From assembly GCA_900315615.1 (NCBI GenBank), contig OMZT01000083.1, forward strand, positions 1 through 41,900: 41,900 bases of DNA, given 5' to 3'. Below are positions 2,236-40,663 of this stretch, piece after piece. The DNA is from an uncultured Veillonellaceae bacterium (GTDB lineage Bacteria; Bacillota; Negativicutes; Selenomonadales; Selenomonadaceae). The first letter of the stretch is position 1. Each line of letters begins with the position of its first letter. The translations under genes and the position numbers were made by a program. The notes below the pieces were generated by a model. The model was not told the DNA's origin. It worked only from the letters and a program-made list of their open reading frames with translations, and did not search any database.

Positions 2236-2961
2236 ATGAGCATCGAAACAGAGATTTTTCGGCGCTACCGGTTGGATGAGGCGCGGTGCTTCGCGTATGG
2301 TTTTCAGCGTGTGGATGGGGGCTGGCGTTATGAACGGACGTTCCTAGATGGCGCGTTCCGGGCTGCCTTGACGATCGATGCGACAGGGCAGGTGACGGGG
2401 AGCGTCATCGACACGATGACGGACGAGGAGTATCTGCCGCTTAGGCAGACGAATCCTGCGGGCAACTATGTTTACGGCGTGCGCTATGCGTATGAGGAGC
2501 TTTTGCGCAGCATCGCGGAGGATTGCTTCGTTCGTGTGCCGTTCGCGTCGGCGCAGGCAAACCGCATTTCTAAGCGAGTGCGTGAAACGTGGGGTGATAC
2601 ACCGGAGTTTCCGTGGAAGGAAAAAGCGTATGCGGCAAGCGGCGTGTTTCGTCATCCTGCGACGCAGAAGTGGTATGGTCTTATCATGCCGGTCGCGTGG
2701 ACAAAGCTCGTGCCGGGGCGGGACGGGCGCGTGGAAATCCTCAATGTCAAGGTCACTGATGCCGCCCGTGCGATCGAGCAAGACGGCTGCTACCCCGCCT
2801 ATCATATGAATAAGCGGTATTGGATTTCTATCGCACTCGACGATACGGTGACGGACGAGGAGGTCTGGACATTTCTAGTCGAGAGTCATGCGTTCTCAGC
2901 AAAGGGGAAGAGAGCAGTGAAGTGTACGAGAGACACGACAGCCGCGAAAGGGAAGAAATGA
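2236..2961 (+). CDS. MmcQ/YjbR-family protein
   Basis: The protein has 241 residues. The second half matches the MmcQ/YjbR (DUF419) fold: FPWKEKAYAASGVFRHP, KWYGLIM, then a VEILNVKV strand, the AYHMNKRYWISIALDD strand and a final VTDEEVWTFLVESHAFS helix. Family members adopt a CyaY-like or double-wing DNA-binding fold, and their biochemical role is poorly defined. The N-terminal 100 residues look like an extra domain found in longer YjbR proteins. The start ATG 2236 has GGAGG eight bases upstream; longer in-frame readings would overlap crcB and are rejected. The stop overlaps the next gene's start as ATGA, so it is translationally coupled to a DNA glycosylase gene, which supports a DNA-related role by context only. 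Confidence 0.82.
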   Translation: MSIETEIFRRYRLDEARCFAYGFQRVDGGWRYERTFLDGAFRAALTIDATGQVTGSVIDTMTDEEYLPLRQTNPAGNYVYGVRYAYEELLRSIAEDCFVRVPFASAQANRISKRVRETWGDTPEFPWKEKAYAASGVFRHPATQKWYGLIMPVAWTKLVPGRDGRVEILNVKVTDAARAIEQDGCYPAYHMNKRYWISIALDDTVTDEEVWTFLVESHAFSAKGKRAVKCTRDTTAAKGKK

Positions 2962-3614
2962 TGCTGACTTCAAGGAAATTATACAACTGCCTGCTTGATA
3001 CTTTCGGCCCGTCTGAAGGCTGGCCAGGTAATACCGTCACGATCATGGCGACTGCCGTCATGGTGCAGAATACGGCGTGGACGGCGGTCGTGCGGGCGAT
3101 GGAGCGCTTTCCGCATGAGCTCACGGCGAAGTATCTGCTAGCATTGTCCGTGGAGGAATTGATGGACTACATCCGCCCGTGCGGCTTCATGCGGCGGAAA
3201 GCCGAGACGATCCAGACGGTCATGGCGTGGTATGGACGGTACGGCTTTGATGCGGCGAAGGTGGAGGCCACGACACAGGAGCGGCTGCGCGAGGAGCTTT
3301 TGGCGATTAAGGGTATCGGCGAGGAGACGGCGGACGTGATTCTACTCTATGCGTTCCACAAGCCGGTGTTCGTGCTCGATGCGTACACGAGACGCTTGCT
3401 CTTGCGGCTTGGCAGTACGGCACGGACGGATGCAGAGCGGAGGGCGTGGTTCACGGCAGACGTGCCGGAGACAGATGCGGTGTACGCTGACTACCATTGG
3501 CTGCTCTTGGAACATGGCAAACGCTACTGCAAGAAGCAGCCGCTGTGCGACGAGTGCCCGCTCGCCGATGCGTGCGCAAAAAAACGGGCTGGACGAAGGA
3601 GGCGGGCGGCATGA
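2958..3614 (+). CDS. Endonuclease III-like HhH-GPD DNA glycosylase, iron-sulfur type
   Basis: This 218-residue protein has a helix-hairpin-helix (IKGIGEETADVI, about 117-128) followed by the catalytic Asp in VFVLDAYTRR (D141). A C-terminal 4Fe-4S motif uses Cys 191, 197, 200 and 206, spaced C-X5-C-X2-C-X5-C. The position of the endonuclease III catalytic Lys (GRKTA in E. coli Nth) is Glu here (GEETA). A monofunctional glycosylase is therefore expected, like the MagIII/HP0602 3-methyladenine group, rather than an AP lyase. It would remove damaged bases to begin base-excision repair. ATG 2958 overlaps the previous stop as ATGA; ATG 2961 is equally possible. Substrate is inferred from family resemblance and neighbours. 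Confidence 0.88.
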   Translation: MMLTSRKLYNCLLDTFGPSEGWPGNTVTIMATAVMVQNTAWTAVVRAMERFPHELTAKYLLALSVEELMDYIRPCGFMRRKAETIQTVMAWYGRYGFDAAKVEATTQERLREELLAIKGIGEETADVILLYAFHKPVFVLDAYTRRLLLRLGSTARTDAERRAWFTADVPETDAVYADYHWLLLEHGKRYCKKQPLCDECPLADACAKKRAGRRRRAA

Positions 3615-4222
3615 TTGACTACGGGCAGGAGGAAATGGACTACCTCTCAGGCAAAGATCCGGTCATGGCGCGGCTCATCGCGCATTACGGTCATTTCGAA
3701 CGCGGCGTGGAGGAGACGGTGTTTTCGTCGCTCGTCACGCATATCGTAAGCCAGATGCTTTCGAACAAGGTCGGGGCGGTGCTGAATGGTCGCCTGCATG
3801 CGCTTGTCGGCGTGTACACGCCGGAGAATATCCTGAGCCAGCCGCGAGGCAGTATCAAGGGCATCGGCATCAGCCAACGCAAGGCGGACTACATCGTCAA
3901 TCTAGCAAAGGGAGCAGCAGAAGGACGATATGATTTCGATGCTTTGACGGGGATGACGGATGCGGAGGTCGTGGCGTATCTCTGCAAGATTCAAGGCGTG
4001 GGAAAATGGACGGCAGAGATGATTGCGGAGTTCACGCTCGGTAGGCTTGATATTTTCAGCTACGGCGATGCTGCCTTGCGCGGCGGCATGGTGAAGGCGC
4101 ATGGCTTCAAGACGCTCTCGAAGCTCAGGTTTAAGCGCTACCGCAAGAAATACGCGCCGTACTGCTCGGTCGCATCACTCTATTATTATGCGGTGAATGA
4201 TGATGACGATGCGTGGCTATAA
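3611..4222 (+). CDS. AlkA-like DNA-3-methyladenine glycosylase
   Basis: This 203-residue HhH-GPD protein has the hairpin IQGVGKWTAEMIAE (about 127-140) and a catalytic Asp in DIFSYGDAALR (D153), matching the AlkA pattern of Trp-Thr-Ala after the hairpin. It lacks the N-terminal domain of E. coli AlkA and has no Fe-S cysteine cluster. It is a minimal glycosylase-2 family member, expected to excise 3-methyladenine and other alkylated purines. The start ATG 3611 overlaps the upstream glycosylase stop as ATGA, so the two glycosylases are translationally coupled. Codons in 1824-4222 look more GC-rich than in the two methyltransferase genes that follow, so the segments may have different histories. 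Confidence 0.88.
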   Translation: MIDYGQEEMDYLSGKDPVMARLIAHYGHFERGVEETVFSSLVTHIVSQMLSNKVGAVLNGRLHALVGVYTPENILSQPRGSIKGIGISQRKADYIVNLAKGAAEGRYDFDALTGMTDAEVVAYLCKIQGVGKWTAEMIAEFTLGRLDIFSYGDAALRGGMVKAHGFKTLSKLRFKRYRKKYAPYCSVASLYYYAVNDDDDAWL

Positions 4223-4281
4223 AAAAGCGAAGATATTTAAATATGTCGCAGCTTAGGAGCAACTCAAAAAAGGGTATAGGC

Positions 4282-4298
4282 CATGCAAGATTTGCATG
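4282..4298. repeat. Perfect inverted repeat upstream of the first methyltransferase gene
   Basis: CATGCAA (4282-4288) and TTGCATG (4292-4298) form a perfect seven-base inverted repeat with a three-base centre. It lies 22 bases before ATG 4320 and upstream of the GGAGG ribosome site. The geometry suits an operator for a dimeric regulator or a short RNA hairpin. No U-tract follows, so it is not a terminator. Confidence 0.4.
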
Positions 4299-4319
4299 AA
4301 AAATTATGGAGGTAATACC

Positions 4320-4853
4320 ATGCACTATACGTCGATATACCAGTCGCCCGTTGGCGAAATCCTTTTAGCTGCTGACGAAGCAGGTGTTGTTGGCATTTGG
4401 TTTAAGGGTGAAAAGTATTTTGCCTATTGCCTGGATGAAGAAAATGAGCCAAGGGAAACGGATATCATCAAAGAGGTGAAACGCTGGCTCGATATATATT
4501 TTGAAGGAAAAGATCCTGAATTTACCCCGCCGTTACACATGATTGGAACGCCGTTTCAGATCGAGGTGTGGAATATTTTAAGAGAAATCCCTTTTGGCGA
4601 AACAACGACGTATAAAGAAATTGCAAGAAAGATTGCGAAAAACAGAGGCATAGAAAGGATGTCGGCTCAGGCGGTCGGGACAGCAGTAGGAAAAAATAGT
4701 ATAAATCTTATTGTGCCCTGTCATAGAGTCGTTGGTACAAATAACAGTTTGGCGGGCTACGCCGGTGGTATTGATAAAAAAATCACATTTTTGAAGCTTG
4801 AAGGGTCATACAAGGATGAATATTTTGTCCCTAAGCACAGTACAACACCATGA
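4320..4853 (+). CDS. ogt: Methylated-DNA--protein-cysteine methyltransferase (Ogt/MGMT)
   Basis: This 177-residue suicide repair protein takes the methyl group of O6-methylguanine (or O4-methylthymine) onto its own cysteine. The acceptor Cys134 lies in IVPCHRV. The DNA-binding helix region TPFQIEVWNILREIPFGETTTY (77-98), the helix with QAVGTAVGKN, and the Asn of GKNSINLIVPCHR fit the Ogt family, and the N-terminal ribonuclease-like domain is present. Length is normal. GGAGG ends about six bases before ATG 4320, fixing the start. The stop overlaps the next gene's start as ATGA. Codons are AT-richer than in the glycosylase genes before it, which hints at separate acquisition. Confidence 0.93.
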   Translation: MHYTSIYQSPVGEILLAADEAGVVGIWFKGEKYFAYCLDEENEPRETDIIKEVKRWLDIYFEGKDPEFTPPLHMIGTPFQIEVWNILREIPFGETTTYKEIARKIAKNRGIERMSAQAVGTAVGKNSINLIVPCHRVVGTNNSLAGYAGGIDKKITFLKLEGSYKDEYFVPKHSTTP

Positions 4854-5179
4854 TGAGTGAAGATTTAATTTACGAGATCCTTTCCGTTGTCGGAGAAATA
4901 CCGGAAGGTAAGGTCGCAACATATGGTCAGATTGCACGGTTGATTGGTAGGGATAAGAACGCACGTCTTGTAGGAAAGGTTCTTTCTATGGCAGAGTTTT
5001 ACGGCAATTACCCGTGCCATAGAGTTGTAAACCATGCGGGGCGACTTGTGCCAGGCTGGTCGGAGCAGCGATTATTGCTCATGGCAGAGGGCGTTGAGAT
5101 GAAAAACTCAAACCATGTAAATTTACGGAGTGTCAGTGGGACTGTTAAAAAAAGATTTAAACCTATCTGCCCCAATTAA
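4850..5179 (+). CDS. Small second MGMT-family protein
   Basis: This 109-residue protein consists of just the C-terminal MGMT domain: a winged-helix part (VGEIPEGKVATYGQIARLIG, residues 14-33) and the active-site segment NYPCHRVV with Cys56. Because the cysteine is kept, it is not a Trp-containing alkyltransferase-like (ATL) protein by motif, although its size and lack of an N-terminal domain resemble ATLs. It could be an active alkyl acceptor or a lesion-binding partner. The region after the active site is short (GRLVPGWSEQRLLLMAEGVE) and the tail is basic. It overlaps the upstream methyltransferase gene as ATGA and must be co-translated with it. Two adjacent ATGs (4850, 4853) are both possible starts. 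Confidence 0.85.
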   Translation: MMSEDLIYEILSVVGEIPEGKVATYGQIARLIGRDKNARLVGKVLSMAEFYGNYPCHRVVNHAGRLVPGWSEQRLLLMAEGVEMKNSNHVNLRSVSGTVKKRFKPICPN

Positions 5180-5400: not shown

Positions 5401-6285
5401 ATGAGAAAGAGAAGCTTTTTAGCAGGGACTTTCGCGTTACTTGCCGTACTGATGTTCAGCATGGCAACTGTTTTTGCTGCAGGTGCTGATTTTGGCACGG
5501 GTGTGATAACGGCAGAAGGATATGGAGTTGCTCCAGCTAATGCACGTACACAGGGACAAGCCAGGGCACTTGCGAGGCGTGCTGCCATGGTTGATGCATA
5601 TCGCAATCTGGCAGAACAGATCAAAGGAGTAAACCTGGATGCCGATACCACGATTGAAAATATGGTAACGACAAGTGATGTAATCCACACCAGGACGAGT
5701 GCACTGATAAAAGGTGCGCGTCCAATCTCTGAGAAATATAATTCTGATGGTTCATATCAGGTAACGGTAGAGGTTTCAATCTATGGCGTGACCGATTCAC
5801 TGGCGAGTGCAGTCCTTCCAAAGAATGAGACGCAAGAGGCATTTCCGAGTGTCTCATCAGGGGCAATGATTTCAAGTCTCCCATCTGTGAGCGACAACCC
5901 GACATATGCGTCATCTGCAGCACCAGTGCCGTATGATGCACAGAATGTGAAGGCGGCTGGAAACTTTACGGGACTCATCGTAGACTGCAGGGGGCTGGGG
6001 CTTGTTCCTATGATGTCACCTGTTATCCGTAATGCTGAAAGCCAGCCAATTTATGGATATAAGAACCTGAACTACAAGAAGGTTATTGCAAAGGGAATGG
6101 CCGGATATGCTACGAATATGTCAGGCGCATCACGTGCTGGCAGCAATCCTATGGTCGTGAAGGCTGTGCGCCTTGAAGGACATAACGGCTACCCTGTTGT
6201 TGCTACGGCTGATGCTAATCGCATTCTTGTAGAGAATGCGGCTTCGGGTTTCTTGGATAATTGCAATGTCGTTTTCCTCCGCTGA
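5401..6285 (+). CDS. Exported LPP20/FlgP-like protein
   Basis: The protein has 294 residues and begins with a clear Sec signal peptide (basic RKR, a hydrophobic stretch to about residue 24, AxA-type cleavage near FAAG). There is no lipobox Cys, so it should be released to the periplasm or surface rather than lipidated. Residues 35-130 match the LPP20 pattern (ARALARRAAMVDAYRNLAEQI, with conserved Ala/Arg spacing), shared by Vibrio and Campylobacter FlgP outer-membrane flagellar proteins. The C-terminal half (GLIVDCRGLGLVPMMSP, SRAGSNPMVVKA) recurs in longer LPP20 proteins. ATG 5401 was chosen because it opens the signal peptide; an earlier in-frame ATG at 5359 would put polar residues in front. 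The 221 bases before it show no convincing promoter. Its role is unknown. Confidence 0.78.
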   Translation: MRKRSFLAGTFALLAVLMFSMATVFAAGADFGTGVITAEGYGVAPANARTQGQARALARRAAMVDAYRNLAEQIKGVNLDADTTIENMVTTSDVIHTRTSALIKGARPISEKYNSDGSYQVTVEVSIYGVTDSLASAVLPKNETQEAFPSVSSGAMISSLPSVSDNPTYASSAAPVPYDAQNVKAAGNFTGLIVDCRGLGLVPMMSPVIRNAESQPIYGYKNLNYKKVIAKGMAGYATNMSGASRAGSNPMVVKAVRLEGHNGYPVVATADANRILVENAASGFLDNCNVVFLR

Positions 6286-6321
6286 CCTCGCAGGAGGATA
6301 TGAGAATATGGTCTAGGCAGG

Positions 6322-6353
6322 CGGTCGGCAGAGTGTTATGTATCTGCCGACCG
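6322..6353 (+). other. Strong intercistronic RNA hairpin
   Basis: Arms 6322-6332 (CGGTCGGCAGA) and 6343-6353 (TCTGCCGACCG) pair perfectly over eleven bases around a ten-base loop, with two more G-U pairs possible outside. Only three T residues follow, so it is a weak terminator at best. It may attenuate transcription or protect the 3' end of the upstream mRNA. An in-frame ATG at 6338 falls in the loop. Confidence 0.75.
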
Positions 6354-6376
6354 TTTCGCAGGTTGAGGAGGTAGGC

Positions 6377-7219
6377 ATGAAAAAAGAGGCTATTGCCGTA
6401 CTGACGGCTACGATAATGTCTTTAGCGGGTACTGTATCAGCAGGGACGACTGAGGTTCCGCGCGGTACGGCACAGACTTCTAGCCAGTCACGGCAGAGCA
6501 GTGTAGAGCAAGATACCAATGCGCAGCATGTAGATTCTAATGCATCAACAAGAAATCCACAGCATGTAGAGACTGCTGATACCGACACATCGGAAAGCCA
6601 TCGTGCTGATGCGGCAAGTCCTTTGGATGAACATCTAAATCACGAAGATGGTACAAGTAATACGAAAGGTGCGTATGGAAAGGCACGACTTGCGGGAGAT
6701 CGGAAAAATGAAGCAGCTGCAGAGGCTGAAAGGGCGGCAGAGCCTCTTGATATATGGCAGAGATATGATAAACTGCCTGAAGAAGCACTCGCACAAGTCA
6801 TAGATATAGTAGCAGCAGGTGAAAAACCTGAAATAGACGATCTTGTGGCGAAGCTATTTACCATGAAGGCACAACGCGATGGATTCGCCGGTGTCAATAA
6901 TCTTACTGGCAATGGACAGGCACACAATATAGTAGACTTAGGATTGGCAGATGGGGCATTCGATGCAGAAAAACTTCATGAGTATGGAGTAACGGGCACA
7001 TATATTGTTGCACTGAGGCCTGTACGCATATCGAGACAGTCTGATGGTACATCGCGTGTTACATTGTTCCTGGATGTTATAAACAGCAGCAATGGTGCAA
7101 TCGTGTACAGCGATAATACGACGAGTGCCGTTCCGGAAAGCAAGGGTGGCGCGTGGAAAGCAGCAGCAAATGATACTGCTCTTCTTATACAGCATGTGCT
7201 GAATAAGTTTAAACTCTGA
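6377..7219 (+). CDS. Exported protein with CsgG/FlgO-like C-terminal region
   Basis: The protein has 280 residues. It starts with a signal peptide (MKKEAIAVLTATIMSLAGTV, cleavage near SAG). Residues 20-120 are low-complexity, polar and Ser/Thr/Gln/Asp rich, probably an unfolded linker. The C-terminal 130 residues are folded: EYGVTGTYIVALRPVRIS, then VTLFLDVINSSNGAIVYSD, a pattern of alternating strands and an S/T-G-x-V-x-x-S turn seen in CsgG, TolB-N and FlgO-type proteins. I do not recognise a named family. GAGGAGG lies about six bases before ATG 6377; an upstream in-frame ATG (6338) sits in a hairpin loop and would spoil the signal peptide. It follows the LPP20-like gene and is closed by a terminator, so the two form a likely bicistronic unit. 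Confidence 0.72.
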   Translation: MKKEAIAVLTATIMSLAGTVSAGTTEVPRGTAQTSSQSRQSSVEQDTNAQHVDSNASTRNPQHVETADTDTSESHRADAASPLDEHLNHEDGTSNTKGAYGKARLAGDRKNEAAAEAERAAEPLDIWQRYDKLPEEALAQVIDIVAAGEKPEIDDLVAKLFTMKAQRDGFAGVNNLTGNGQAHNIVDLGLADGAFDAEKLHEYGVTGTYIVALRPVRISRQSDGTSRVTLFLDVINSSNGAIVYSDNTTSAVPESKGGAWKAAANDTALLIQHVLNKFKL

Positions 7220-7244: not shown

Positions 7245-7274
7245 ATAGCAGCAATCTTCTTGCTGCTATTTTTT
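7245..7274 (+). terminator. Rho-independent terminator after the exported-protein pair
   Basis: Arms 7245-7254 (ATAGCAGCAA) and 7260-7269 (TTGCTGCTAT) pair perfectly over ten bases around a five-base loop, followed by a T run to 7274. It separates the exported pair from the mreB promoter. Confidence 0.92.
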
Positions 7275-7302
7275 ATGAAATCATTTCTGAATATTTTTTT
7301 CG

Positions 7303-7331
7303 TTTACAATCGCGTTCTTTTGCACTATAAT
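7303..7331 (+). promoter_or_regulatory. Sigma-A promoter of the mreB operon
   Basis: TTTACA (7303-7308), a 17-base spacer and a perfect TATAAT (7326-7331) form a near-consensus promoter. The leader to mreB is about 95 bases. A second extended -10 element (TG at 7367-7368, TAAAAT at 7370-7375) lies closer to the gene but has no clear -35. Confidence 0.85.
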
Positions 7332-28650: not shown

Positions 28651-28713
28651 AAAAAATAAGTATATTGATGTTAGCGTATGGGGTTAAGAACGGAAAAGGG
28701 GAGATATAATATT

Positions 28714-29493
28714 ATGGCAAAGGGTCTGTTAGAAAAGACACGTAAGATCAATCGTCTGCTGCAGCGCTCAAAAAGCGTGAAATATGACGACATATCGCGT
28801 GTCCTTAGCAATGTGATTGATGCAAATGTATATATTGTCGACAAAAAGGGTAAGATTTACGGATATGCTTTCGTGGACGACTTTGAATGTAATCTGATGA
28901 TAGACAACGTCGTTGATAATGGCGAATTTCCTAAGCATTATGTGAATTGGCTGCTGAAGATTGATGATACGTCACCAAATCTTCGCTCGAAGACCGGCAA
29001 ATGTGCTTTCGCTGAGAATAGTAAGTGTATTTATAATGGAAAAAATACGACCATAGTGCCGATCTATAGTGATGGTGATCGTATCGGCACCCTTGTCGTA
29101 GCAAAGTATGGCGAAGAATTTACAGATGATGACCTGCTTCTTGCAGAGTATGGAGCAACTGTCGTCGGTATGGAGATGCTTCGAGACCATACTAAGGAAG
29201 TAGAGATAGAGGCGCGTGAGAAAGCTACCGTTCAGATAGCGCTCTCAACACTTTCTTATTCGGAGATAGAAGCAGCCATCAGCATATTTGGCGCTATGCA
29301 AGATACGGAGGATCTTATCGTTGCATCTAAGATCGCTGACAAGGTGGGCATCACTCGCTCTGTAATCGTGAATGCACTTCGTAAGTTTGAATCTGCAGGG
29401 CTTATAGAATCCAAGTCACTTGGCATGAAGGGCACATTCATCAAGATAAAGAATGAGCATCTGCTTGATGAGATAGAGAAACTCAAACATTGA
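28714..29493 (+). CDS. codY: GTP- and branched-chain-amino-acid-sensing repressor CodY
   Basis: This 259-residue global regulator of nutrient-limited genes has an N-terminal GAF sensor domain (1-155) with the linker EYGATVVGMEMLRD and a C-terminal winged helix. Its recognition region ASKIADKVGITRSVIVNALRKFESAGLIES (204-233) is nearly identical to Bacillus and Clostridium CodY. By eye the GAF domain is of clostridial type: the Bacillus Arg61 that holds the amino-acid carboxylate aligns with Met62, and two Cys (97 and 105) are shared with clostridial forms. ATG 28714 follows GGGGAGA; an upstream in-frame ATG at 28678 adds twelve unlike residues. It has its own promoter and terminator and sits upstream of flgB, a gene order conserved with Bacillus. 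Confidence 0.97.
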   Translation: MAKGLLEKTRKINRLLQRSKSVKYDDISRVLSNVIDANVYIVDKKGKIYGYAFVDDFECNLMIDNVVDNGEFPKHYVNWLLKIDDTSPNLRSKTGKCAFAENSKCIYNGKNTTIVPIYSDGDRIGTLVVAKYGEEFTDDDLLLAEYGATVVGMEMLRDHTKEVEIEAREKATVQIALSTLSYSEIEAAISIFGAMQDTEDLIVASKIADKVGITRSVIVNALRKFESAGLIESKSLGMKGTFIKIKNEHLLDEIEKLKH

Positions 29494-29505
29494 TACAAAT
29501 ATACT

Positions 29506-29541
29506 AAAGAGGCAGGAAGGATGAATCTTTCCTGTCTCTTT
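29506..29541 (+). terminator. Probable terminator after codY
   Basis: About thirteen base pairs form between 29506-29518 (AAAGAGGCAGGAA) and 29529-29541 (TTCCTGTCTCTTT), one of them G-U. The U-tract is short, so termination may be partial. Confidence 0.75.
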
Positions 29542-29644
29542 GCTTATATTGTATAAGACGAACGAAAAAAGCTTGGATATCTATAAAATACTGTCGATTA
29601 ATCATTATATATTACAGATACTGTACATAATGGGAAAAAGGTCA

Positions 29645-29659
29645 CTTTTTCAAAAAAAT
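29645..29659. promoter_or_regulatory. Possible CodY box upstream of the flagellar operon
   Basis: This AT-rich 15-mer matches the CodY consensus at 11 of 15 positions. It lies in the region between the codY terminator and the candidate flgB promoter, where Bacillus CodY is known to repress the fla/che operon. The match includes homopolymer runs and is weak alone. Confidence 0.3.
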
Positions 29660-29690
29660 ATATTTAGAGCTTTTTCTTAATAAAAAAAGA

Positions 29691-29699
29691 TGGTAAAAT
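29691..29699 (+). promoter_or_regulatory. Candidate extended -10 promoter of the flagellar operon
   Basis: TG (29691-29692) one base before TAAAAT (29694-29699) makes an extended -10 element; the -35 region (TTTTTC, 29671-29676) is poor. The rest of 29542-29690 is AT-rich with no gene. The leader to flgB would be near 87 bases. No sigma-28-type promoter was convincing. Confidence 0.45.
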
Positions 29700-29792
29700 G
29701 GATAGCGGTTATTTTTGCTTAAAAGAGGATTTAAAAGAAAAAACGTAGAAAATGACATATACGTGTGTGTGGTATGTTGGGAGGGAAAAGCC

Positions 29793-30209
29793 GTGCTGGA
29801 GAATATAGTTGCGAATAAACCAATCGATGTTATGGAGCGTGGATTACAGGCAGCAAATCTTCGTCAGGCAGTGACGGCTGATAATATAGCGAATGTCAAT
29901 ACTCCAAATTTCAAGAAAAGCAGCGTTATCTTTGAAGATATGCTTGCAAAGGAATTGGGATTGGATGATGATAAGAGGAAGCTGAAACTTGTTAGGACTA
30001 ATGACAGGCATCTGCCAGTGCTTCCTCCAGGGAAAGTCTACGCGAAGACTCAGCTTGATAATTCTACCACGATGCGCGTCGATAATAATAATGTCGATAT
30101 AGATAAAGAAATGGCAGGATTAGCAGAGAATCAGATATATTTTAATGCGTTGACGCGCAGCATAGGCTCTTATATGAGCCGAATTAAGAGTGTAATAACA
30201 AGCAGATAA
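29793..30209 (+). CDS. flgB: Flagellar basal-body rod protein FlgB
   Basis: This 138-residue protein forms the proximal part of the flagellar rod in the periplasm. The N-terminal rod motif LRQAVTADNIANVNTPNFKKSSV (residues 24-46) and the C-terminal IDKEMAGLAENQIYFNALTRSI helix are typical of rod/hook proteins, which lack a cleaved signal and are exported by the flagellar type III apparatus. The start is taken as GTG 29793, preceded by GGGAGGG; a longer reading from 29715 adds 26 unlike residues. It opens a long operon whose order flgB-flgC-fliE-fliF-fliG-fliH-fliI-fliJ matches Bacillus. Confidence 0.95.
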   Translation: MLENIVANKPIDVMERGLQAANLRQAVTADNIANVNTPNFKKSSVIFEDMLAKELGLDDDKRKLKLVRTNDRHLPVLPPGKVYAKTQLDNSTTMRVDNNNVDIDKEMAGLAENQIYFNALTRSIGSYMSRIKSVITSR

Positions 30210-30239
30210 ATACGATTTTGTTATGAAAAGAGGGATATC

Positions 30240-30689
30240 ATGAGCATGTTCGGCAATATAGAGGCATCTGCCTCGGGCATGACCGCGGAGCGTTTGCGCA
30301 TGGATGTAATTTCCAATAATCTGGCTAATGCGAACACGACCAGAACAGCTGGCGGAGGACCTTATAAACGCCGCTATGTCGTTTTTCAGCCAAGAGATAA
30401 TAATGACCCGTCTTTTTTGAAGATGCTTCGTGGACAGATAGATCGTTCACAGCCAGGGGATGGTGTCAGAGCAGTGGGGATAGGTACTGATAACACACAG
30501 GGACCACTTGTATATGATCCTGGTCATCCAGATGCGAATGCGCAGGGATATGTTGAACGTCCAAATGTGAATGTCGTTGCTGAGATGATTGATATGATTA
30601 CGGCTTCAAGAGCTTATGAGGCTAATGCTACGGCAATCAGCTCGGCCAAGAGTATGGCTTCGCAGGCATTGAGCATAGGACGTAGCTGA
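30240..30689 (+). CDS. flgC: Flagellar basal-body rod protein FlgC
   Basis: This 149-residue rod protein has the shared N-terminal motif ASASGMTAERLRMDVISNNLANANTTR (residues 9-35) and a C-terminal helix with YVERPNVNVVAEMIDMITASRAYEANATAISSAKSM, the diagnostic FlgC end. It assembles next to FlgB above the MS ring. Length is standard, and ATG 30240 follows AGAGGGATATC. It lies 30 bases after flgB and 33 bases before the fliE start. Confidence 0.97.
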   Translation: MSMFGNIEASASGMTAERLRMDVISNNLANANTTRTAGGGPYKRRYVVFQPRDNNDPSFLKMLRGQIDRSQPGDGVRAVGIGTDNTQGPLVYDPGHPDANAQGYVERPNVNVVAEMIDMITASRAYEANATAISSAKSMASQALSIGRS

Positions 30690-30722
30690 TAATGTTTTTT
30701 CATAATGATAGAAGGTGACGTA

Positions 30723-31025
30723 ATGCAGGTAGAAGCATTGCAGATGACGCCGGTGCAGATGACCGGTGAAAGTCATCTGGGGGAGACGACCCCAAAGGAA
30801 GAAGCAAAGTCATTCGGTGATTGCCTCATTGATGCACTTAAAGAAACGAATGCGTTGCAGCATCGTTCCGATGAGCTTAATGAGGCATTGGCTGCAGGCA
30901 GGATAGATGATGTATCACAGGTGGTTATAGCGAGTGAAAAGGCAGAGATTGCTATGCAGCTCACTATGCAGGTTAGGAACCGTGCTGTAGAGGCATATCA
31001 GGAAATATCCCGTATGCAGATTTAA
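30723..31025 (+). CDS. fliE: Flagellar hook-basal body protein FliE
   Basis: This 100-residue protein joins the MS ring to the rod. The C-terminal region VVIASEKAEIAMQLTMQVRNRAVEAYQEISRMQI is the conserved FliE helix pair; the N-terminal third is variable. ATG 30723 has AGAAGGTGA four to five bases upstream, better than the ATG at 30705, which would add six residues and has no such site. The gene sits between flgC and fliF, its usual place. Confidence 0.95.
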   Translation: MQVEALQMTPVQMTGESHLGETTPKEEAKSFGDCLIDALKETNALQHRSDELNEALAAGRIDDVSQVVIASEKAEIAMQLTMQVRNRAVEAYQEISRMQI

Positions 31026-31097
31026 TGTTATAGCGCTGAGATACGGCCGTCACATTGATGACAGCCGATAGATTGAAGATGCGAAGGGATTGAGATA

Positions 31098-32684
31098 ATG
31101 GCAGATTGGAAAGAGCGGTATCTGCAGCTTTGGCAAAAATTCAATAAGCGTCAGCGCTATATGATAATCGGTGTTGCTGTACTTCTTCTGGTGGTCATAC
31201 TTGGCACTAGCTTTTGGTATGGCAGCAAACCTGACATGGTACCTTTGTTTACCAATATGGAAACCAAGGATGCAGGGGAAGTTGCATCGAAGCTGAAGGA
31301 AAGCAAAGTCGAATACAAGGTGCAGCAAGGGTCAAAAGGCACTACTATTCTGGTGCCATCGGCTCGGGTCGATACATTGAGACTGGATCTTGCTTCACAG
31401 GGACTCCCACGCGGACCTAAGGGATTTGAGATATTCGATGACAGTAAGCTTGGTGTCACCGAATTCCAGAATAAGGTTAATTATTTGCAGGCATTGCAGG
31501 GTGAGCTGACGCGTACTATAGAGCAGCTGGATGCTGTTGAGAGCGCACGTGTTCATATAGTCCTTCCAGAGGACAGCCTGTATAAGAAGAATGAGAAGCC
31601 GGCAACAGCTTCTATAATGTTGCATATAAAGCCTAATCAGTCACTGAAGCGGAAGGAGATAAAGGGCATAGTCAACCTTGCTGCGCATAGCGTGCAGGGA
31701 CTGCGGCCAGAAAATATCACTATCGTTGATGAGACAGGTAAAATACTCAATGATCCTGACGATCAGGAAGATGGCGTCAGCACGAAGACTGTTACCCAGA
31801 TTGAAATGACCAAGAAGATGCAGGATAATATGACGAAGGATATACAGACACTTCTTGATCAGACTCTAGGTGAGGGTCGTGCAGCTGTTCGCGTTAATCT
31901 TGAGCTTGATTTCGATCAGCGCCAGACTGACAGCCAGACATATACACCAGTTGTCGATGATGCTGGAATAGTACGTAGCGAGCAGACGACCAACGAGACA
32001 TATAATGGAACGTCTACGAACCCGGGCGGTCCTGCTGGCACTCAGTCTAACGTACCAGGCTATGTTGCAGAAGCTGGTAATTCCCAGGCGGATTACAGCA
32101 AGAAGGAAGCTACGCGCAACTATGAAGTAAACGAGGAGAAAAAGAAGGTAATCGCTTCTCCAGGGTCCATAAAGCGCGTTAACGTGGCTGTGCTTGTCAA
32201 TGATGATGTTACACAGGCACAGCAGGATAGCATATTGAGATCAGTGACATCTGCCGCGGGTATCAATACCGACCGTGGTGATACGATTTCAGTTGAACCT
32301 TTGCCTTTCAGCACGGCTGCGGCAGATAGGCGCGCGGCCGAGGAGAAAGCTGCAAAGGATGCACAAAATCGCCTGTACGGCATGATCGCTGCAGGCATCC
32401 TGCTTGTGCTATTGATTATTGCGTATGCGATCTATGCGCGCAGAAAGAGAAAGCGTGAAGAGCAGGAAGCACTCGAGGAGCAGCAGCGTCTTGAGGCTCT
32501 TGCAAGGCAGCGTGAGGATGAGGAGCGTGCTGCAGCTATAGAGGCAGGAGAAGTAGCAGAAGAAGAGATGACTGAGGAAGAACTCCAGAACATGACGCAG
32601 CGTCAGGCATTGGATGATTTGATTCATCAAAAGCCTGCAGAGATGGCTATGCTTATTAAGACGTGGCTTTCGGAGGATGAGTAA
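31098..32684 (+). CDS. fliF: Flagellar MS-ring protein FliF
   Basis: This 528-residue membrane protein forms the MS ring, the base of the motor and export gate housing. Membrane segments lie at about residues 21-42 and 430-450. Between them are the ring-building domains, with TKDAGEVASKLKESKVEYKV, ASQGLPRGPKGFEIFDDSKLGVTEFQNKVNY and ALQGELTRTIEQLDAVESARVHIVLPE. A Gly/Pro/Thr-rich stretch (about 300-330) is the variable loop. The acidic C-terminal tail ending in MLIKTWLSEDE binds FliG. The fliG start directly follows the stop, with no gap. Confidence 0.97.
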   Translation: MADWKERYLQLWQKFNKRQRYMIIGVAVLLLVVILGTSFWYGSKPDMVPLFTNMETKDAGEVASKLKESKVEYKVQQGSKGTTILVPSARVDTLRLDLASQGLPRGPKGFEIFDDSKLGVTEFQNKVNYLQALQGELTRTIEQLDAVESARVHIVLPEDSLYKKNEKPATASIMLHIKPNQSLKRKEIKGIVNLAAHSVQGLRPENITIVDETGKILNDPDDQEDGVSTKTVTQIEMTKKMQDNMTKDIQTLLDQTLGEGRAAVRVNLELDFDQRQTDSQTYTPVVDDAGIVRSEQTTNETYNGTSTNPGGPAGTQSNVPGYVAEAGNSQADYSKKEATRNYEVNEEKKKVIASPGSIKRVNVAVLVNDDVTQAQQDSILRSVTSAAGINTDRGDTISVEPLPFSTAAADRRAAEEKAAKDAQNRLYGMIAAGILLVLLIIAYAIYARRKRKREEQEALEEQQRLEALARQREDEERAAAIEAGEVAEEEMTEEELQNMTQRQALDDLIHQKPAEMAMLIKTWLSEDE

Positions 32685-33704
32685 ATGGACGATATGTATG
32701 GTGAGGCTGAACTTACAAACGAACAAAAGGTCGCCATCCTCTTCATTGCACTTGGACCAGAAGATTCAGCCATTCTTTTCAAGCATCTGAGCGATGAAGA
32801 AATAGAAAAGATTACGCTCGAGATTGCAAATCAGAAGCAGGTTACGCCAGAACAGAAAACGGCTGTTATCAATGAATTTTATCAGATGGCGATGGCCAAG
32901 AACTATATCTCGACAGGCGGGCTTGAGTATGCTCAGAATGTACTCGAGAAGGCTTTGGGAGCAGAGAAGGCTCTAAATATCATCAACAGATTGACCACAA
33001 GCCTGCAGGTGCGGCCATTTGAATTCCTGCGTAAGACGGATCCATCGCAACTGATGAACTTTATCCAGAACGAGCATCCTCAGACCGTTGCGCTGATAAT
33101 GGCGTATCTTGAGCCAGACCAGGCTGCAACGGTGCTTAGCTCCCTGCCTCCAGATCAGCAGGCAGAGGTCGCTAAGAGAGTCGCCGAGATGGATCGTACC
33201 TCACCAGACGTGATCCGCGAAGTGGAGCGGGTACTCGAAAGGAAGCTTTCATCTCTCGTTACACAGGATTTCACGGCTGCAGGCGGCGTAAAGGCTATAG
33301 TCGAAGTATTGAACCGTGTAGATCGTGCTACAGAGAAGAGTATCACGGAGACACTCGAGGTCGACAATCCAGAGCTTGCAGAAGAGATCAAAAAACTCAT
33401 GTTTGTATTCGAGGACATCGTTCTGCTCGACGACCGTTCACTCCAGATGGTTTTGCGTCAGGTGGATACAAAAGACCTTTCACTGGCACTCAAGGCTACA
33501 CCAAAGCAAGTCTCGGACAAGGTCTACAAGAATATGTCGAAACGAGCAGGCGATATGCTGCGTGAAGAGATTGAATTCATGGGTCCGGTTAAGATCCGAG
33601 ATGTTGAGGAGGCACAGCAGAAGATCGTCAATGTCATCCGCTCGCTGGAGGACAAGGGCGAGATCGTTGTGTCCCGTGGCAAGGGAGACGAGATGATTGT
33701 CTAG
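32685..33704 (+). CDS. fliG: Flagellar motor switch protein FliG
   Basis: This 339-residue rotor protein transmits torque from the stators. The N-terminal domain (VAILFIALGPEDSAILFKHLSDEEIEKIT) binds FliF. The middle contains FIQNEHPQTVALIMAYLEPDQAA, including the EHPQ motif that contacts FliM. The C-terminal torque helix region MFVFEDIVLLDDRSLQMVLRQVD keeps alternating charged residues. Length is typical. ATG 32685 is the first codon after the fliF stop, so the two are translationally coupled. The last eight bases overlap the fliH TTG start. Confidence 0.98.
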   Translation: MDDMYGEAELTNEQKVAILFIALGPEDSAILFKHLSDEEIEKITLEIANQKQVTPEQKTAVINEFYQMAMAKNYISTGGLEYAQNVLEKALGAEKALNIINRLTTSLQVRPFEFLRKTDPSQLMNFIQNEHPQTVALIMAYLEPDQAATVLSSLPPDQQAEVAKRVAEMDRTSPDVIREVERVLERKLSSLVTQDFTAAGGVKAIVEVLNRVDRATEKSITETLEVDNPELAEEIKKLMFVFEDIVLLDDRSLQMVLRQVDTKDLSLALKATPKQVSDKVYKNMSKRAGDMLREEIEFMGPVKIRDVEEAQQKIVNVIRSLEDKGEIVVSRGKGDEMIV

Positions 33705-34488
33705 GGTTATCAAGGCTGCCGTATGGCAGGAAAAGCCATGCGTTGTCGAGATACCAAAGGAATCTGAGCAGCAGACGGAAAGCATGGATGAGGAGCTGAC
33801 GCCGGAGATTAAGGAGAATCTACTCGCCGGTATAAGAGAGAAGCAAAAACGAGCCGATGAGATTTTGAGGCAGGCTGGTATCGATGCCGATATCATAAGG
33901 CAAAAAGCGGAAGCAGAAGCTGACTCAATAAGAGCACAGGCTCGGGAGGAAGCTGAGACTGTAAAGCAGGATGCTATGAAGCAAGGTTATGATGAGGGCT
34001 TTGCTAAGGGCGAGCAGGATGGCATAAAAAAAGCTGAGGAAGCCTGCAGTGACAAGATAACAGAGGCGGCGCAAAAAGCAGAGAAGACGATTCATGATGC
34101 AGAGTATGCATGTGATGACTATGTTTCCAAGGCTGAGGATACGGTTGCGGAGCTTGCCATGCATGTGGTAGAGAAGATCCTGCCACAGCATTTCATAGAT
34201 GTGCCACAGGTCTTATTGCCAGTTGTTCGCGATGCCATAAAGAATGTGCGCGATCAGAGTAGAGTAGTTGTTTCCGTGGCACCGGCTGCTTATGATATGG
34301 TGCTGATGGCAAGGACTGAGTTCCAGTCGATGCTTTCGGGCAATGCCGCGCTTGAGATACGGTCGGATGAGACATTAGGACCTGGCGACGTCATCGTAGA
34401 AACTCCGAATGGTACTGTAGATGCAAAACTTGCAACGCAGATGGATCTCGTAAAGCAGGCATTGTCTGATATGATGTCACAACATTAA
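33697..34488 (+). CDS. fliH: Flagellar assembly protein FliH
   Basis: This 263-residue protein forms the stator-like arm that holds and restrains the FliI ATPase at the export gate. It is mostly coiled coil: residues 45-150 are rich in Glu, Lys, Ala and Gln, with GYDEGFAKGEQDGIKKAEE. The C-terminal domain with HVVEKILPQHFIDVPQVLLPVVRDAIKNV and LGPGDVIVETPNGTVDAKL resembles the FliH/YscL and V-ATPase E families. The TTG 33697 start has GGGAGACGAG about five bases upstream and overlaps fliG. Sequence conservation is low, so position is part of the evidence. Confidence 0.93.
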   Translation: MSRVIKAAVWQEKPCVVEIPKESEQQTESMDEELTPEIKENLLAGIREKQKRADEILRQAGIDADIIRQKAEAEADSIRAQAREEAETVKQDAMKQGYDEGFAKGEQDGIKKAEEACSDKITEAAQKAEKTIHDAEYACDDYVSKAEDTVAELAMHVVEKILPQHFIDVPQVLLPVVRDAIKNVRDQSRVVVSVAPAAYDMVLMARTEFQSMLSGNAALEIRSDETLGPGDVIVETPNGTVDAKLATQMDLVKQALSDMMSQH

Positions 34489-34513
34489 GGATACAGCAGG
34501 GGGGTGACCAGCC

Positions 34514-35833
34514 ATGAGAGATATAAATGTCATGAAGTTTATGGATGCAGTGGATGAGACTCATACCATGAAACTGACTGGCAGGATTACCCAGGTCATC
34601 GGGCTGGTCATAGAGTCTGAAGGTCCTAATGTAAGTATGGGAGAGCTCTGCTATGTAAGTTCTAGATTTGATGGCGTTGAGCCAGTTCCTGCAGAGGTCG
34701 TCGGTTTCCGCGAAGGAAAGGTACTCTTGATGCCGATAGGAGAAATGCAGGGGATTGGACCGGGCTGTGAAGTCGTATCTGCTCAACATACATTGAAGGT
34801 GAAGGTCGGTCCCGAAATCCTTGGGCGTGTGCTAGATGGACTAGGTCAGCCCATGGATGGGAAGGGACCGCTTCTTTGCAAGGATGAGTATCCTCTGCAA
34901 GCAGATCCTCCACAGCCACTCAAAAGACCACGCATACATGATTCGCTTTACGTTGGCGTTCGAGCCATAGATGGGCTGATAACCATGGGGCAAGGACAGC
35001 GTATTGGTATAATGGCTGGAAGCGGGGTTGGCAAGTCAACGCTGCTTTCTATGATTGCTAGAAATACAGAGGCTGACATAAGCGTGATAGCTCTTGTGGG
35101 AGAACGTGGCAGGGAGGTTCGAGACTTTATCGAGAGAGACCTCGGAGAAGAAGGATTGAAACGGTCTGTAGTCGTCGTCGCAACCTCAGATAAGCCTGCA
35201 CTTGTGCGCATAAAGGGTGCGCAAACCGCGACTGCTGTTGCTGAATATTTTCGCGACCAGGGCAAGAAAGTCGTGCTTATGATGGATTCTGTCACACGAT
35301 TTGCTATGGCTCAGCGTGAAGTGGGACTGACTGTTGGCGAACCTCCTGCAACAAGAGGATATACACCATCGGTGTTTGCGATGCTTCCAAGGCTGCTTGA
35401 GCGTGCTGGTACGAGTGATAGGGGCTCCATTACGGGGATATATACGGTTCTCGTTGATGGTGATGACATGAATGAGCCGATAGCAGATGCCGTCCGAAGC
35501 ATCCTTGATGGACACATCGTGCTATCCCGAGCCATAGCGGCTCAGAACCATTTCCCGGCCATTGATATATTAGCAAGTGTCAGCCGTGTTATGGGGGATG
35601 TCGTTACAAAAGAGCATATTAAGGCTGCGCAGCAGATGAGAGCTCTGCTTGCCGTATACAAGGAGGCAGAGGATCTGATACATATCGGTGCATATGTTAA
35701 AGGATCCAGTAAGCAGATAGATGAGGCTGTATCTAAGATAGATAAGATCAATGAATTCCTTTGTCAAGGAATATTTGAGGTTACATCGTTTGAAGATACG
35801 GAGAAGATGCTTGAAAGTATTCAGTCGCAATGA
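34514..35833 (+). CDS. fliI: Flagellum-specific ATP synthase FliI
   Basis: This 439-residue ATPase, homologous to F1 beta subunits, energises and releases export substrates from chaperones. Walker A is GSGVGKST (169-176), with GERGREVRDFIERDLG and the Walker B region VVLMMDSVTRFAMAQREVGL. RGYTPSVFAMLPRLLERAG and DGHIVLSRAIAAQNHFPAIDIL are family signatures. Length is normal. GGGGGGTGA lies a few bases before ATG 34514. The last residues are Glu/Ser rich. It is followed by fliJ after 21 bases. Confidence 0.97.
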   Translation: MRDINVMKFMDAVDETHTMKLTGRITQVIGLVIESEGPNVSMGELCYVSSRFDGVEPVPAEVVGFREGKVLLMPIGEMQGIGPGCEVVSAQHTLKVKVGPEILGRVLDGLGQPMDGKGPLLCKDEYPLQADPPQPLKRPRIHDSLYVGVRAIDGLITMGQGQRIGIMAGSGVGKSTLLSMIARNTEADISVIALVGERGREVRDFIERDLGEEGLKRSVVVVATSDKPALVRIKGAQTATAVAEYFRDQGKKVVLMMDSVTRFAMAQREVGLTVGEPPATRGYTPSVFAMLPRLLERAGTSDRGSITGIYTVLVDGDDMNEPIADAVRSILDGHIVLSRAIAAQNHFPAIDILASVSRVMGDVVTKEHIKAAQQMRALLAVYKEAEDLIHIGAYVKGSSKQIDEAVSKIDKINEFLCQGIFEVTSFEDTEKMLESIQSQ

Positions 35834-35854
35834 TCCTGAGCGGGAGGCATTGTA

Positions 35855-36316
35855 ATGAAAAAATTCCGTTTTCAGCTTGAAACGCTGCTGAAGGTTACAA
35901 GGATGAAAAAGGATCAGGCGGAGGTCGCCTTTGCAGAGGCGTCCAAGCGCTTGACAGAGGCCAGAGACCGCTTGACAGAGCTTATGCAGGAAATGCAGCA
36001 GGGGCACCATGATTATGATGAGCTCGCTAAAGGCAAAATAACATTGGGAACCTTGATGGCGTACAATAGTTTCTTTGACTGGAAGCGTCAGCAGATAGAG
36101 CAGCAACAGCATGTTATCGTTGAGGCAAACGCAGAGAGGCAAAAAAAACTCAAGTTACTTATGGAAATCATGGCGAAGCTGAAAAGCATTGAGCAGCTGA
36201 AAGAAAAAAGGCTGCAGGAATATAAGGCGGAGCTTTTACATGAAGAGCAGAAAATGCTTGATGAGATTGGTTCTCAGCTTTATACAAGGGGTCATAGGAA
36301 AGAGGATGCTGTATGA
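35855..36316 (+). CDS. fliJ: Flagellar export protein FliJ
   Basis: This 153-residue antiparallel coiled-coil protein inserts into the FliI hexamer and links it to the export gate FlhA. Nearly the whole chain is helical and rich in Lys, Glu, Gln and Leu, beginning KKFRFQLETLLKVTRMKKDQAEVAFAEA, a common FliJ opening. Length and position after fliI fit. ATG 35855 follows GGGAGGC. It ends in an ATGA overlap with the lytic transglycosylase gene, an arrangement that ties wall remodelling to basal-body assembly. Confidence 0.95.
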   Translation: MKKFRFQLETLLKVTRMKKDQAEVAFAEASKRLTEARDRLTELMQEMQQGHHDYDELAKGKITLGTLMAYNSFFDWKRQQIEQQQHVIVEANAERQKKLKLLMEIMAKLKSIEQLKEKRLQEYKAELLHEEQKMLDEIGSQLYTRGHRKEDAV

Positions 36317-36930
36317 TGAACATTGATGGTATACAGGAAATTCAGAGTAGGATCAATGAGATTCAGCATAGGTTCGGAATGGTGCAGATGACGGGTGCAC
36401 CGAGTTTCCAAAATACACTTGAACAAGAAATGGCGATAGAAAAGAAAAGTCCTGATACAGCACCCGCTAATACGCCCGTTGCAGACACTCCTCTATCTGC
36501 AAAGAAACCTGAAGATCCTGCGGTACGCGCATTTGCGGAGGCTGGTGATGTAGGCGGACCGTCTACAATAGAGAATATGATAAGACAATCTGCTATGAAG
36601 TATGGAGTAGATCCCAGGCTTGCAGATGCGGTAGCTCAGGCAGAGTCCGGTGGACGTCAGGAAGCAGTATCGGATGCAGGGGCAATCGGCGTCATGCAGC
36701 TTATGCCGGAGACGGCAGCAGGTTTGGGTGTGAATCCATACGATGCAGCACAAAACATTGACGGTGGTACCAAATACCTAAAAAGCCTGCTTGATACGTT
36801 TGGCGGGGATGTTCGTAAGGCGGTAGCCGCGTACAATGCCGGCCCCGAGGCTGTAAAGAGATACGGCGGAGTACCTCCTTATCAGGAAACGAAACAATAT
36901 GTAGACAGGGTGCTTGATCTCTACAGGTAG
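36313..36930 (+). CDS. Lytic transglycosylase, Slt-type, in the flagellar operon
   Basis: This 205-residue protein has a C-terminal Slt/GEWL domain (about 85-205): the catalytic Glu in AVAQAESGGRQEAVSDAGAIGVMQLMPETAAGLGVNP and AAYNAGPEAVKRYGGVPPY. The first 80 residues are polar and Pro/Thr/Ala rich with no signal peptide. It may therefore leave through the flagellar export channel, as proposed for FlgJ-type enzymes, to open peptidoglycan for the rod. Bacillus has no such gene at this position. It overlaps fliJ as ATGA, and ATG 36316 is an alternative start. Function is inferred from the domain and operon. Confidence 0.93.
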   Translation: MMNIDGIQEIQSRINEIQHRFGMVQMTGAPSFQNTLEQEMAIEKKSPDTAPANTPVADTPLSAKKPEDPAVRAFAEAGDVGGPSTIENMIRQSAMKYGVDPRLADAVAQAESGGRQEAVSDAGAIGVMQLMPETAAGLGVNPYDAAQNIDGGTKYLKSLLDTFGGDVRKAVAAYNAGPEAVKRYGGVPPYQETKQYVDRVLDLYR

Positions 36931-37001
36931 TTTATATATTGTTTTATGCAAAGTTATAGTTTTTTCTGGAATGTACGATATATGATTAGAAAGGTGATAT
37001 C

Positions 37002-37598
37002 ATGGCGCGAGAGCAGGAGGTATATCTGCCAGATGATTTAGGCGAAGAAAAGAAGCCTGGCAAAGGAAAGCGGATATTGAAGATATTCCTTCTTCTTCTG
37101 CTGATTATAGTGCTAGTCATAGGTGGCTTCTTGCTTGGTGTGTATTTGAAGATATTCGATACGCAAGAAATGAACGAGAAGCTGGCACTTTACAATGTCC
37201 CTGTTATAGGACAATTCTTCGTGAAGCCTGGACCACCTGCTACGCAGGAAGAACCTGATCGTGAGACAGAGGAGCTTGAAGAGCCTGAGCCTGAGCCAGA
37301 TGATCAGAAGAAAAAAGTCGTGCTTACGAAGAAGGACATCGAGCGCCAGCGTAAAGAACAGGAAGCAGCAGAGCGCAAGCGTGTATCCAAACTCGCTCGT
37401 CTCTATAATGAGATGAAGCCTAAGGATGCAGCCGCGGTTATGGATGACCTTGATGATGATATGGCGATTTCTATTCTACAGAGAATGGATGAATCACAGG
37501 CATCTGCTGTACTGAGCCAGTTTGAACCATCTAAGGCAGCAAGACTTACGCGCATTATGTATTCCGGTGCGCCGAGACGCGTAACCGACAACCAGTAA
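37002..37598 (+). CDS. MotE/YlxF-like membrane protein
   Basis: This 198-residue protein has a basic N-terminal tail, one membrane helix at about 25-47 (LKIFLLLLLIIVLVIGGFLLG) and a charged coiled stretch (95-130). A C-terminal MgtE-N/FliG-like helical region follows: YNEMKPKDAAAVMDDLDDDMAISILQRMDESQASAVLSQFEPSKAARLT. This pattern is that of MotE and of Bacillus YlxF, found between fliJ and fliK. MotE-type proteins act as periplasmic chaperones of motor parts. GAAAGGTG lies before ATG 37002, and the 71 bases upstream are AT-rich with no clear promoter. Confidence 0.85.
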   Translation: MAREQEVYLPDDLGEEKKPGKGKRILKIFLLLLLIIVLVIGGFLLGVYLKIFDTQEMNEKLALYNVPVIGQFFVKPGPPATQEEPDRETEELEEPEPEPDDQKKKVVLTKKDIERQRKEQEAAERKRVSKLARLYNEMKPKDAAAVMDDLDDDMAISILQRMDESQASAVLSQFEPSKAARLTRIMYSGAPRRVTDNQ

Positions 37599-37623
37599 CG
37601 CCTTTCTGATAGGAGGGAATGAA

Positions 37624-39330: not shown

Positions 39331-39350
39331 TTGCGCGGGAGGTAATAAAG

Positions 39351-39830
39351 ATGTCGAATACGCTTAATACTATCACGGTCGATGGCGTTACCTACGATGC
39401 AGCAGACTATGCAGCGTCTCAGAATGCATCCAATGTGAAGAAAAATTCTTCGTTGGATAAGGAGGCGTTTCTTTCGTTGCTCGTCACGCAGCTTCAGTAC
39501 CAGGATCCACTGAGCCCAATGGATAACTCTGAATACCTTGCTCAGTTGGCGCAGTTCAGTGCACTCGAACAGATGACGAATGTCGCTGATAACCTTAGTA
39601 GCTTGTCTGATGTGGTAAAGAATATGGACACATCAGTGCTGGTTGGTCAGCTCAGCAGTATGATAGACAAGAATGTTACATGGTCTGATGGGCATAATGT
39701 GGTCAATAAAGGCGCAGTGAAGGGTGTCAGTATATCTGATGGTATACCGAGCCTCATAGTAGAGACAGCAGATGGTAAGCAGACTTCGGTGTCTGTCAGT
39801 GAGATAGTTCGCATAGATTCTGTAGCATGA
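39351..39830 (+). CDS. flgD: Flagellar hook-cap protein FlgD
   Basis: This 159-residue protein forms the cap under which hook subunits polymerise. The diagnostic N-terminal region is [43 protein letters not shown] (residues 44-86), and a small beta domain makes up the rest. Length is close to the short Bacillus FlgD. ATG 39351 follows GGGAGGTAATAAAG; a TTG at 39327 would add eight unlike residues. The hook gene flgE, normally next, is missing here: 48 bases later comes flbD, with no remnant visible between. Confidence 0.94.
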
Positions 39831-39878
39831 TTTTGTGAATAAGCATGGATGTATTATTGTGCGAGAGGAGCAGCTTCA

Positions 39879-40079: not shown

Positions 40080-40116
40080 GACAGAATATCAGATGAGTTT
40101 ATGAGGAGGATACGTT

Positions 40117-40629: not shown

Positions 40630-40663
40630 TCTGCAGAATCATGTCAGGGAAGGAGGATGAAGC

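Follow-up and report, generated by a model that had tools for sequence, protein, structure and literature searches.

A secreted FlgP-family protein with a Tp0624-D2-type domain that does not track flagella within Selenomonadales

The analysed window, a stretch of 41,900 nucleotides from contig OMZT01000083.1 of an uncultured Veillonellaceae bacterium (assembly GCA_900315615.1), encodes a secreted protein, P0001, which belongs with FlgP by its family, its insert and its predicted fold and which carries an additional C-terminal domain of the Tp0624-D2 type. The P0001 family recurs beside a FlgT_N-like gene and is not associated with flagella at the level of the order Selenomonadales. FlgP, FlgT and FlgO are known parts of flagellar outer-membrane rings, and a sequence-only reading of this DNA had raised the prospect that P0001 and the product of the next gene, P0002, form an analogue of such a ring or another envelope assembly. 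On balance, we favour P0001 as an exported, non-lipidated FlgP-type protein of a flagellum-independent, outer-membrane-proximal envelope assembly, with P0002 as a separate protein.

Gene, export signal and family membership of P0001

The gene and the parts of its product map to the window as follows.

5401..6285, + strand: P0001 coding sequence, 294 aa; secreted protein with a FlgP/LPP20 domain and a Tp0624-D2-type C-terminal domain
5401..5478, + strand: signal-peptide-like segment (residues 1-26) of the SPase I type, without a lipobox Cys (by eye)
5488..5778, + strand: FlgP/LPP20 (SHS2-like) domain, residues 30-126, from Pfam, the A1 profile and the model
5620..5718, + strand: insert, residues 74-106, between the SHS2 helix and the second strand; matches the ring-forming beta-hairpin of FlgP
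5953..6282, + strand: C-terminal domain (residues 185-294), a homologue of Tp0624 domain D2 from Treponema

Both open reading frames, P0001 and P0002 (6377-7219), lie on the + strand where the sequence-only reading had placed them and are coding, with codon usage of 0.236 and 0.217 bits per codon, respectively, in frame 1, like that of the neighbouring genes, and negative values in the other frames. Their N-termini are signal-peptide-like and end in SPase-I-type sites read by eye (...ATVFA-AGAD in P0001 and ...GTVSA-GTTE in P0002), and neither protein has a lipobox, since Cys occurs in P0001 only at positions 196 and 288 and is absent from P0002; these points of the reading were borne out.

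P0001 is the sole match to LPP20 (PF02169) in its genome (E=1.6e-7, 32.0 bits against a Pfam gathering cut-off of 25.9, residues 53-125), and the same model is matched at E<=0.01 by 19 of the 20 Selenomonadales homologues that make up profile A1; a FlgT_N match in P0001 falls below the Pfam cut-off. Profile A1 aligned with Campylobacter jejuni FlgP (9hmf) at E=2.8e-22 over residues 30-121 and with Vibrio FlgP at E=1.8e-9, and A2, the profile of the 56-member family, reached E=4.6e-23 with the former and E=7.5e-11 with the latter (8z5n). Judged by these profile comparisons, P0001 is a true relative of FlgP, homologous over the full SHS2-type domain including the hairpin insert and far above chance, which is a stronger relationship than the resemblance initially claimed. 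It scores above the Pfam gathering threshold of the family of Helicobacter Lpp20 and differs from that protein in not being a lipoprotein and in its FlgP-like architecture and insert. The family reaches up to 14 copies per genome (genus g11), so that paralogues may differ in function, and the linker between the two domains ranges from 17 to 126 residues.

Predicted structure, hairpin insert and C-terminal domain

An AlphaFold2 model of P0001 based on a larger alignment (pLDDT 85, pTM 0.75) superseded one that was built on a 20-sequence alignment (pLDDT 63.6). The model contains strands at residues 35-43, 107-113 and 118-126 and a helix at 51-73, and when it was used as a Foldseek query the only structures returned at E<0.001 were Tp0624 of Treponema pallidum (5jir; 5.7e-10 and 1.6e-8) and C. 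jejuni FlgP (8.8e-7), the latter in agreement with the fold first suggested.

The insert measures 33 residues in all 56 of 56 family members and aligns without gaps to the C. jejuni FlgP hairpin, and the model renders it as a hairpin with strands 80-83 and 95-98 at a pLDDT of about 52-66, a low value obtained for a monomer. PMC12222027 reports a correlation between ring oligomerisation in the FlgP family and the presence of an insertion here, and from the insert we reasonably infer that P0001 could polymerise. Unlikely, in our estimation, is that P0001 is a non-polymerising periplasmic protein of SHS2 fold, for instance a soluble factor for outer-membrane biogenesis or ligand binding, whose similarity to FlgP reflects fold ancestry only. 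Such a protein would be in keeping with the low hairpin pLDDT of the monomer model and with dodecin and Helicobacter Lpp20, both of which share the SHS2 fold without a ring-forming hairpin (PMC12222027), but the constant length of the insert and its gap-free alignment to a ring-forming FlgP argue against it.

With reference to the C-terminal domain, residues 175-296 of A2 matched positions 126-261 of the Tp0624 chain (5jir) at E=9.4e-6, a span that comprises linker L1 and D2 and not the OmpA-like D3, by the boundaries of PMC5104382 with numbering inferred from chain length. An OmpA-like C-terminal domain, such as that of Tp0624, was considered for P0001 and discarded because the sequence match lies within D2 and Foldseek found nothing OmpA-like. 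The structural alignment to Tp0624 extends over almost the whole P0001 model (283 columns in both domains, TMq 0.57, rmsd 9.0); D2 is homologous by sequence, whereas D1 is without a sequence match and its correspondence comes from the structure alignment only. P0001 differs from Tp0624 in having no D3, and D1-D2 pairs without D3 are described in nearly 50 proteins from varied bacteria in PMC5104382, in which Tp0624 D1 is not called FlgP-like.

Distribution of the P0001 family in relation to flagella

Among 189 Selenomonadales genomes, the P0001 family was detected in 158, fliF in 173 and FlgH in 172. The family was present in 145 of the 173 genomes with fliF (28 without it) and in 13 of the 16 lacking fliF (3 without it), which is no difference (p=0.73), and when fliF and FlgH were considered jointly it was present in 140/166 both-positive and 9/10 both-negative genomes (p=1.0). 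Gene absence in draft genomes may equal an assembly gap, as shown by one genome that lacks fliF and yet contains FlgH (G161); the both-negative genomes alone form a firm set. The P0001 family thus does not track flagella within Selenomonadales. Two Mitsuokella-like genomes (G040 and G041) belonging to the both-negative set carry P0001 homologues; fliF-lacking genomes are also among the sources of its nearest homologues (G042, 60% identity; G126, 59%), and a further homologue occurs in G188, likewise negative for fliF and FlgH.

Across a class sample of 301 Negativicutes genomes, the family showed a raw association with fliF (112/52 versus 19/118, odds ratio 13), which, in raw counts uncorrected for ancestry, looks clade-driven, with large clades lacking both. 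The co-occurrence with flagella that the sequence-only reading proposed to check is seen in the raw class-wide counts and not within the order. In one family of the class (f15), fliF was found in none of the sampled genomes and yet 11 genomes hold the P0001 family, which speaks against a purely flagellar role.

These counts bear directly on the proposal that P0001 is a component of the flagellar basal disk or H-ring, and that the homologues in relatives without flagella are paralogues that were kept or put to new use, which we regard as unlikely. True FlgP homology with the insert, the raw positive association in the class and the flagellar operon that the host carries on this contig (fliF at 31098, fliG at 32685, fliM at 40664) are in its favour, as is the precedent of Acetonema longum. 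This organism is a Negativicute. Its FlgP served as a query in PMC5758724, so that a Negativicute FlgP homologue was known to the authors of that work, and a cryo-ET motor map of A. longum is available (EMD-5297). Against the flagellar assignment stand the equal frequency of the family with and without fliF in the order, the 26 Selenomonadales genomes that possess fliF and FlgH and lack the family, its retention in Mitsuokella-like genomes and in f15, the fliF-lacking genomes among the nearest homologues and the position of the copies away from detected flagellar genes; within the order, the same frequencies go against the flagellar outer-membrane ring first envisaged for the pair. P0001 resembles the basal-disk/H-ring FlgP of Campylobacter (9hmf) and Vibrio (8z5n) in its SHS2-type domain, its insert of matching length and its export. 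Unlike FlgP, it has no lipobox, bears an extra C-terminal domain and is not encoded within a flagellar gene cluster, and genomes without detected flagellar genes retain its family.

A literature search returned no relevant paper connecting FlgP with Selenomonas.

Gene neighbourhoods of the P0001 family

The gene surroundings of the family vary widely within Selenomonadaceae, but one arrangement, c5-c6-c1-c7-P1, recurs and is often followed by a TPR gene. The c1 product matches FlgT_N, and six loci outside Selenomonadales (L170, L171, L173, L174, L177 and L178) have a c1 homologue adjacent to P1 or close by. A protein with CsgG and FlgT_C matches joins the P1/c1 loci in three of the regions (L173:9941-10813, L176:6011-6946 and L178:8232-9053), of which L178 comes from a genome of f15, the family without detected fliF, and in L176 the P1 match follows c1 outside the ORF calls. 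The recurring partner across families is the FlgT_N-like gene; the P0001-P0002 pair is not a conserved unit, as P0002 has no convincing homologue in the Negativicutes genomes searched. Other members of the class do pair a P0001 homologue with a CsgG/FlgT-type protein, namely at L173, L176 and L178, but the evidence does not identify P0002 with this protein.

At 13 P1 loci, of which 12 come from outside the order, the surrounding 9 kb or so contained no detected flagellar gene. When these 13 regions and L070 were compared by BLAST with the flagellar proteins of the window and with the FlgH loci, none gave a match, in a search that would miss very diverged genes. The recurrent neighbours match the models FlgT_N, CsgG and FlgT_C, recalling FlgT of the gamma-proteobacterial H-ring and CsgG/FlgO-type proteins, and differ from these systems in not being found beside flagellar genes. 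In the window's own genome a c1 gene is located on another contig (C54), unlinked to P0001. An ftsZ-like neighbourhood of the family in Mitsuokella, with ThiF-like and CarD-like neighbours assigned by eye, was judged incidental.

P0002 and the intergenic sites

Downstream of P0001 the following features were recorded.

6322..6353, + strand: inverted repeat with a perfect 11-bp stem, between the P0001 and P0002 genes; no T-tract, unique in the window
6377..7219, + strand: P0002 coding sequence, 280 aa; secreted orphan
7245..7275, + strand: terminator-like hairpin and T run after P0002; consensus match
7303..7331, + strand: promoter-like site upstream of mreB, TTTACA-17-TATAAT, 11/12; consensus match only

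P0002 has no homologue in the 189 Selenomonadales genomes, no convincing one in the 301 Negativicutes genomes (best others E=0.075-0.095) and none in viral contigs, and it gave no Pfam, NCBIfam or PDB match of weight, the CsgG and FlgO Pfam domains included. Residues of about 24-120 are low-complexity and the C-terminal part has the stronger coding signal. Because its codon usage is that of the neighbouring genes and in frame 1 only, the P0002 reading frame probably represents a genuine gene despite its orphan status.

The likeness of P0002 to FlgO or CsgG, which the sequence-only reading had claimed, did not hold up: domain and PDB searches gave nothing of weight, motif scores were low, and the assignment was rejected as unproven. 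Against the FlgT-like profile A3 the protein scored 7.2 bits, a value reached by 0/500 shuffles and uncorrected for the trial of about a dozen profiles, and the match covers a single strand-turn-strand motif; against a CsgG-like profile it scored 1.5 bits, which 17/500 shuffles reach. With about a dozen profiles tried, this motif-level likeness to FlgT/CsgG is a hint only. The matches of hhalign to a TPR cluster (c2) covered few columns and were set aside as alignment artefacts.

It is decidedly unlikely, in our view, that P0002 represents a fast-diverged functional equivalent of the CsgG/FlgT-type partner and that the conserved module is present in the window in degenerate form. Secretion, a position directly downstream of P0001 and the A3 score unmatched by shuffled sequences would accord with such a history; the lack of any domain match or convincing homologue, the restriction of the match to one motif among so many profiles, the low CsgG-like score, reached by some of the shuffles, and the presence of a c1 FlgT_N-like gene elsewhere in the genome weigh against it. 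P0002 is best explained as a separate, lineage-specific secreted protein.

The two genes were described as an apparent bicistron, and they are indeed adjacent on the same strand with a gap of 91 bp, but the strong hairpin at 6322-6353 between them renders this doubtful. Co-transcription is possible, and the hairpin is a possible mRNA processing or attenuation element.

Position beside mreB and nearby genes

The position of the pair upstream of mreB was correctly noted, but proved not to be meaningful. Terminator-like and promoter-like sites intervene, although chance alone would yield consensus matches in this region at roughly the rate observed, and in relatives whose loci are listed, with names given by eye, the gene upstream of mreB is mostly radC, often preceded by maf, while a few have other genes in that place. 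No P0001/P0002 pair lies beside mreB among those loci, and with radC in that place the arrangement appears peculiar to the lineage of the window; linkage of the pair to mreB was consequently discarded. That the pair assists the MreB/elongasome locus and contributes to cell shape, as its adjacency to mreB and the genes after it might suggest, is highly improbable given these intervening sites, radC in the listed relatives and the occurrence of homologues in many unrelated contexts elsewhere.

Several further genes were observed in the surroundings. Just upstream of P0001 (window 2820-5179) lies a cluster of DNA-repair genes. Two resemble HhH-GPD glycosylases, although the second of these narrowly misses the Pfam cut-off, and another two, which overlap, are of the O6-alkylguanine methyltransferase type, one of them encoding 109 aa with the DNA-binding domain only. 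At 28678-41668 a CodY gene precedes the flagellar operon, which comprises a rod gene, fliF, fliG, a T3SS-type ATPase gene and fliM. A second mreB is located at the edge of contig C30 of the same genome (106-1092, L163), and in relatives such an mreB paralogue shares its strand with flgH at a distance of no more than about 4 kb, an odd link to a flagellar L-ring gene. FlgH had no match in the window's genome; loss of the L-ring was dismissed, with an assembly edge as the likely cause, the second mreB, which is near flgH in relatives, ending at the edge of C30.

Proposed role and meaning

Relatives of P0001 are kept without flagella, so P0001 probably builds another cell-envelope structure. Computation supplied its family membership, insert, domain architecture, predicted fold and recurrent FlgT_N-like neighbour and the absence of an association with flagella in the order; its polymerisation, outer-membrane-proximal location, physical partnership and envelope role are inferred, and they would combine in the following way. 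P0001, a FlgP/LPP20 domain fused to a Tp0624-D2-type domain, would be exported by Sec and remain non-lipidated in the periplasm, where the FlgP-type domain may polymerise edge to edge through its hairpin insert into rings, arcs or sheets. The polymer would sit on the periplasmic face of the outer membrane, with the variable linker and the D2-type domain presenting the scaffold to partners. In Negativicutes these would be a FlgT_N-like protein and, in some lineages, the CsgG and FlgT_C protein as well, and the assembly would constitute a cell-envelope structure outside the flagellar motor.

The envelope assembly that we favour has points against it: the usual lipid anchor to the outer membrane is absent from the P0001 family, the hairpin is predicted with low confidence, c1 is unlinked in this genome, the class-wide odds ratio is high and the copy number is expanded in some genomes. 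FlgP homologues without a lipid anchor are described from Helicobacter (PMC11756786).

Overall, the fold of P0001 would connect the uncharacterised D1-D2 unit of Tp0624 from Treponema with the FlgP family. Possible but doubtful is the broader proposition that diderm Firmicutes hold a flagellum-independent ring or lattice machine of the outer membrane, made of FlgP and FlgT_N-like proteins and in part CsgG/FlgT_C proteins, and that the H-ring and basal disk of Proteobacteria were recruited from such a system. If the proposed role of P0001 is true, FlgP-, FlgT- and CsgG-like parts would serve a wider envelope structure, and the recruitment of the flagellar ring from it would become testable.
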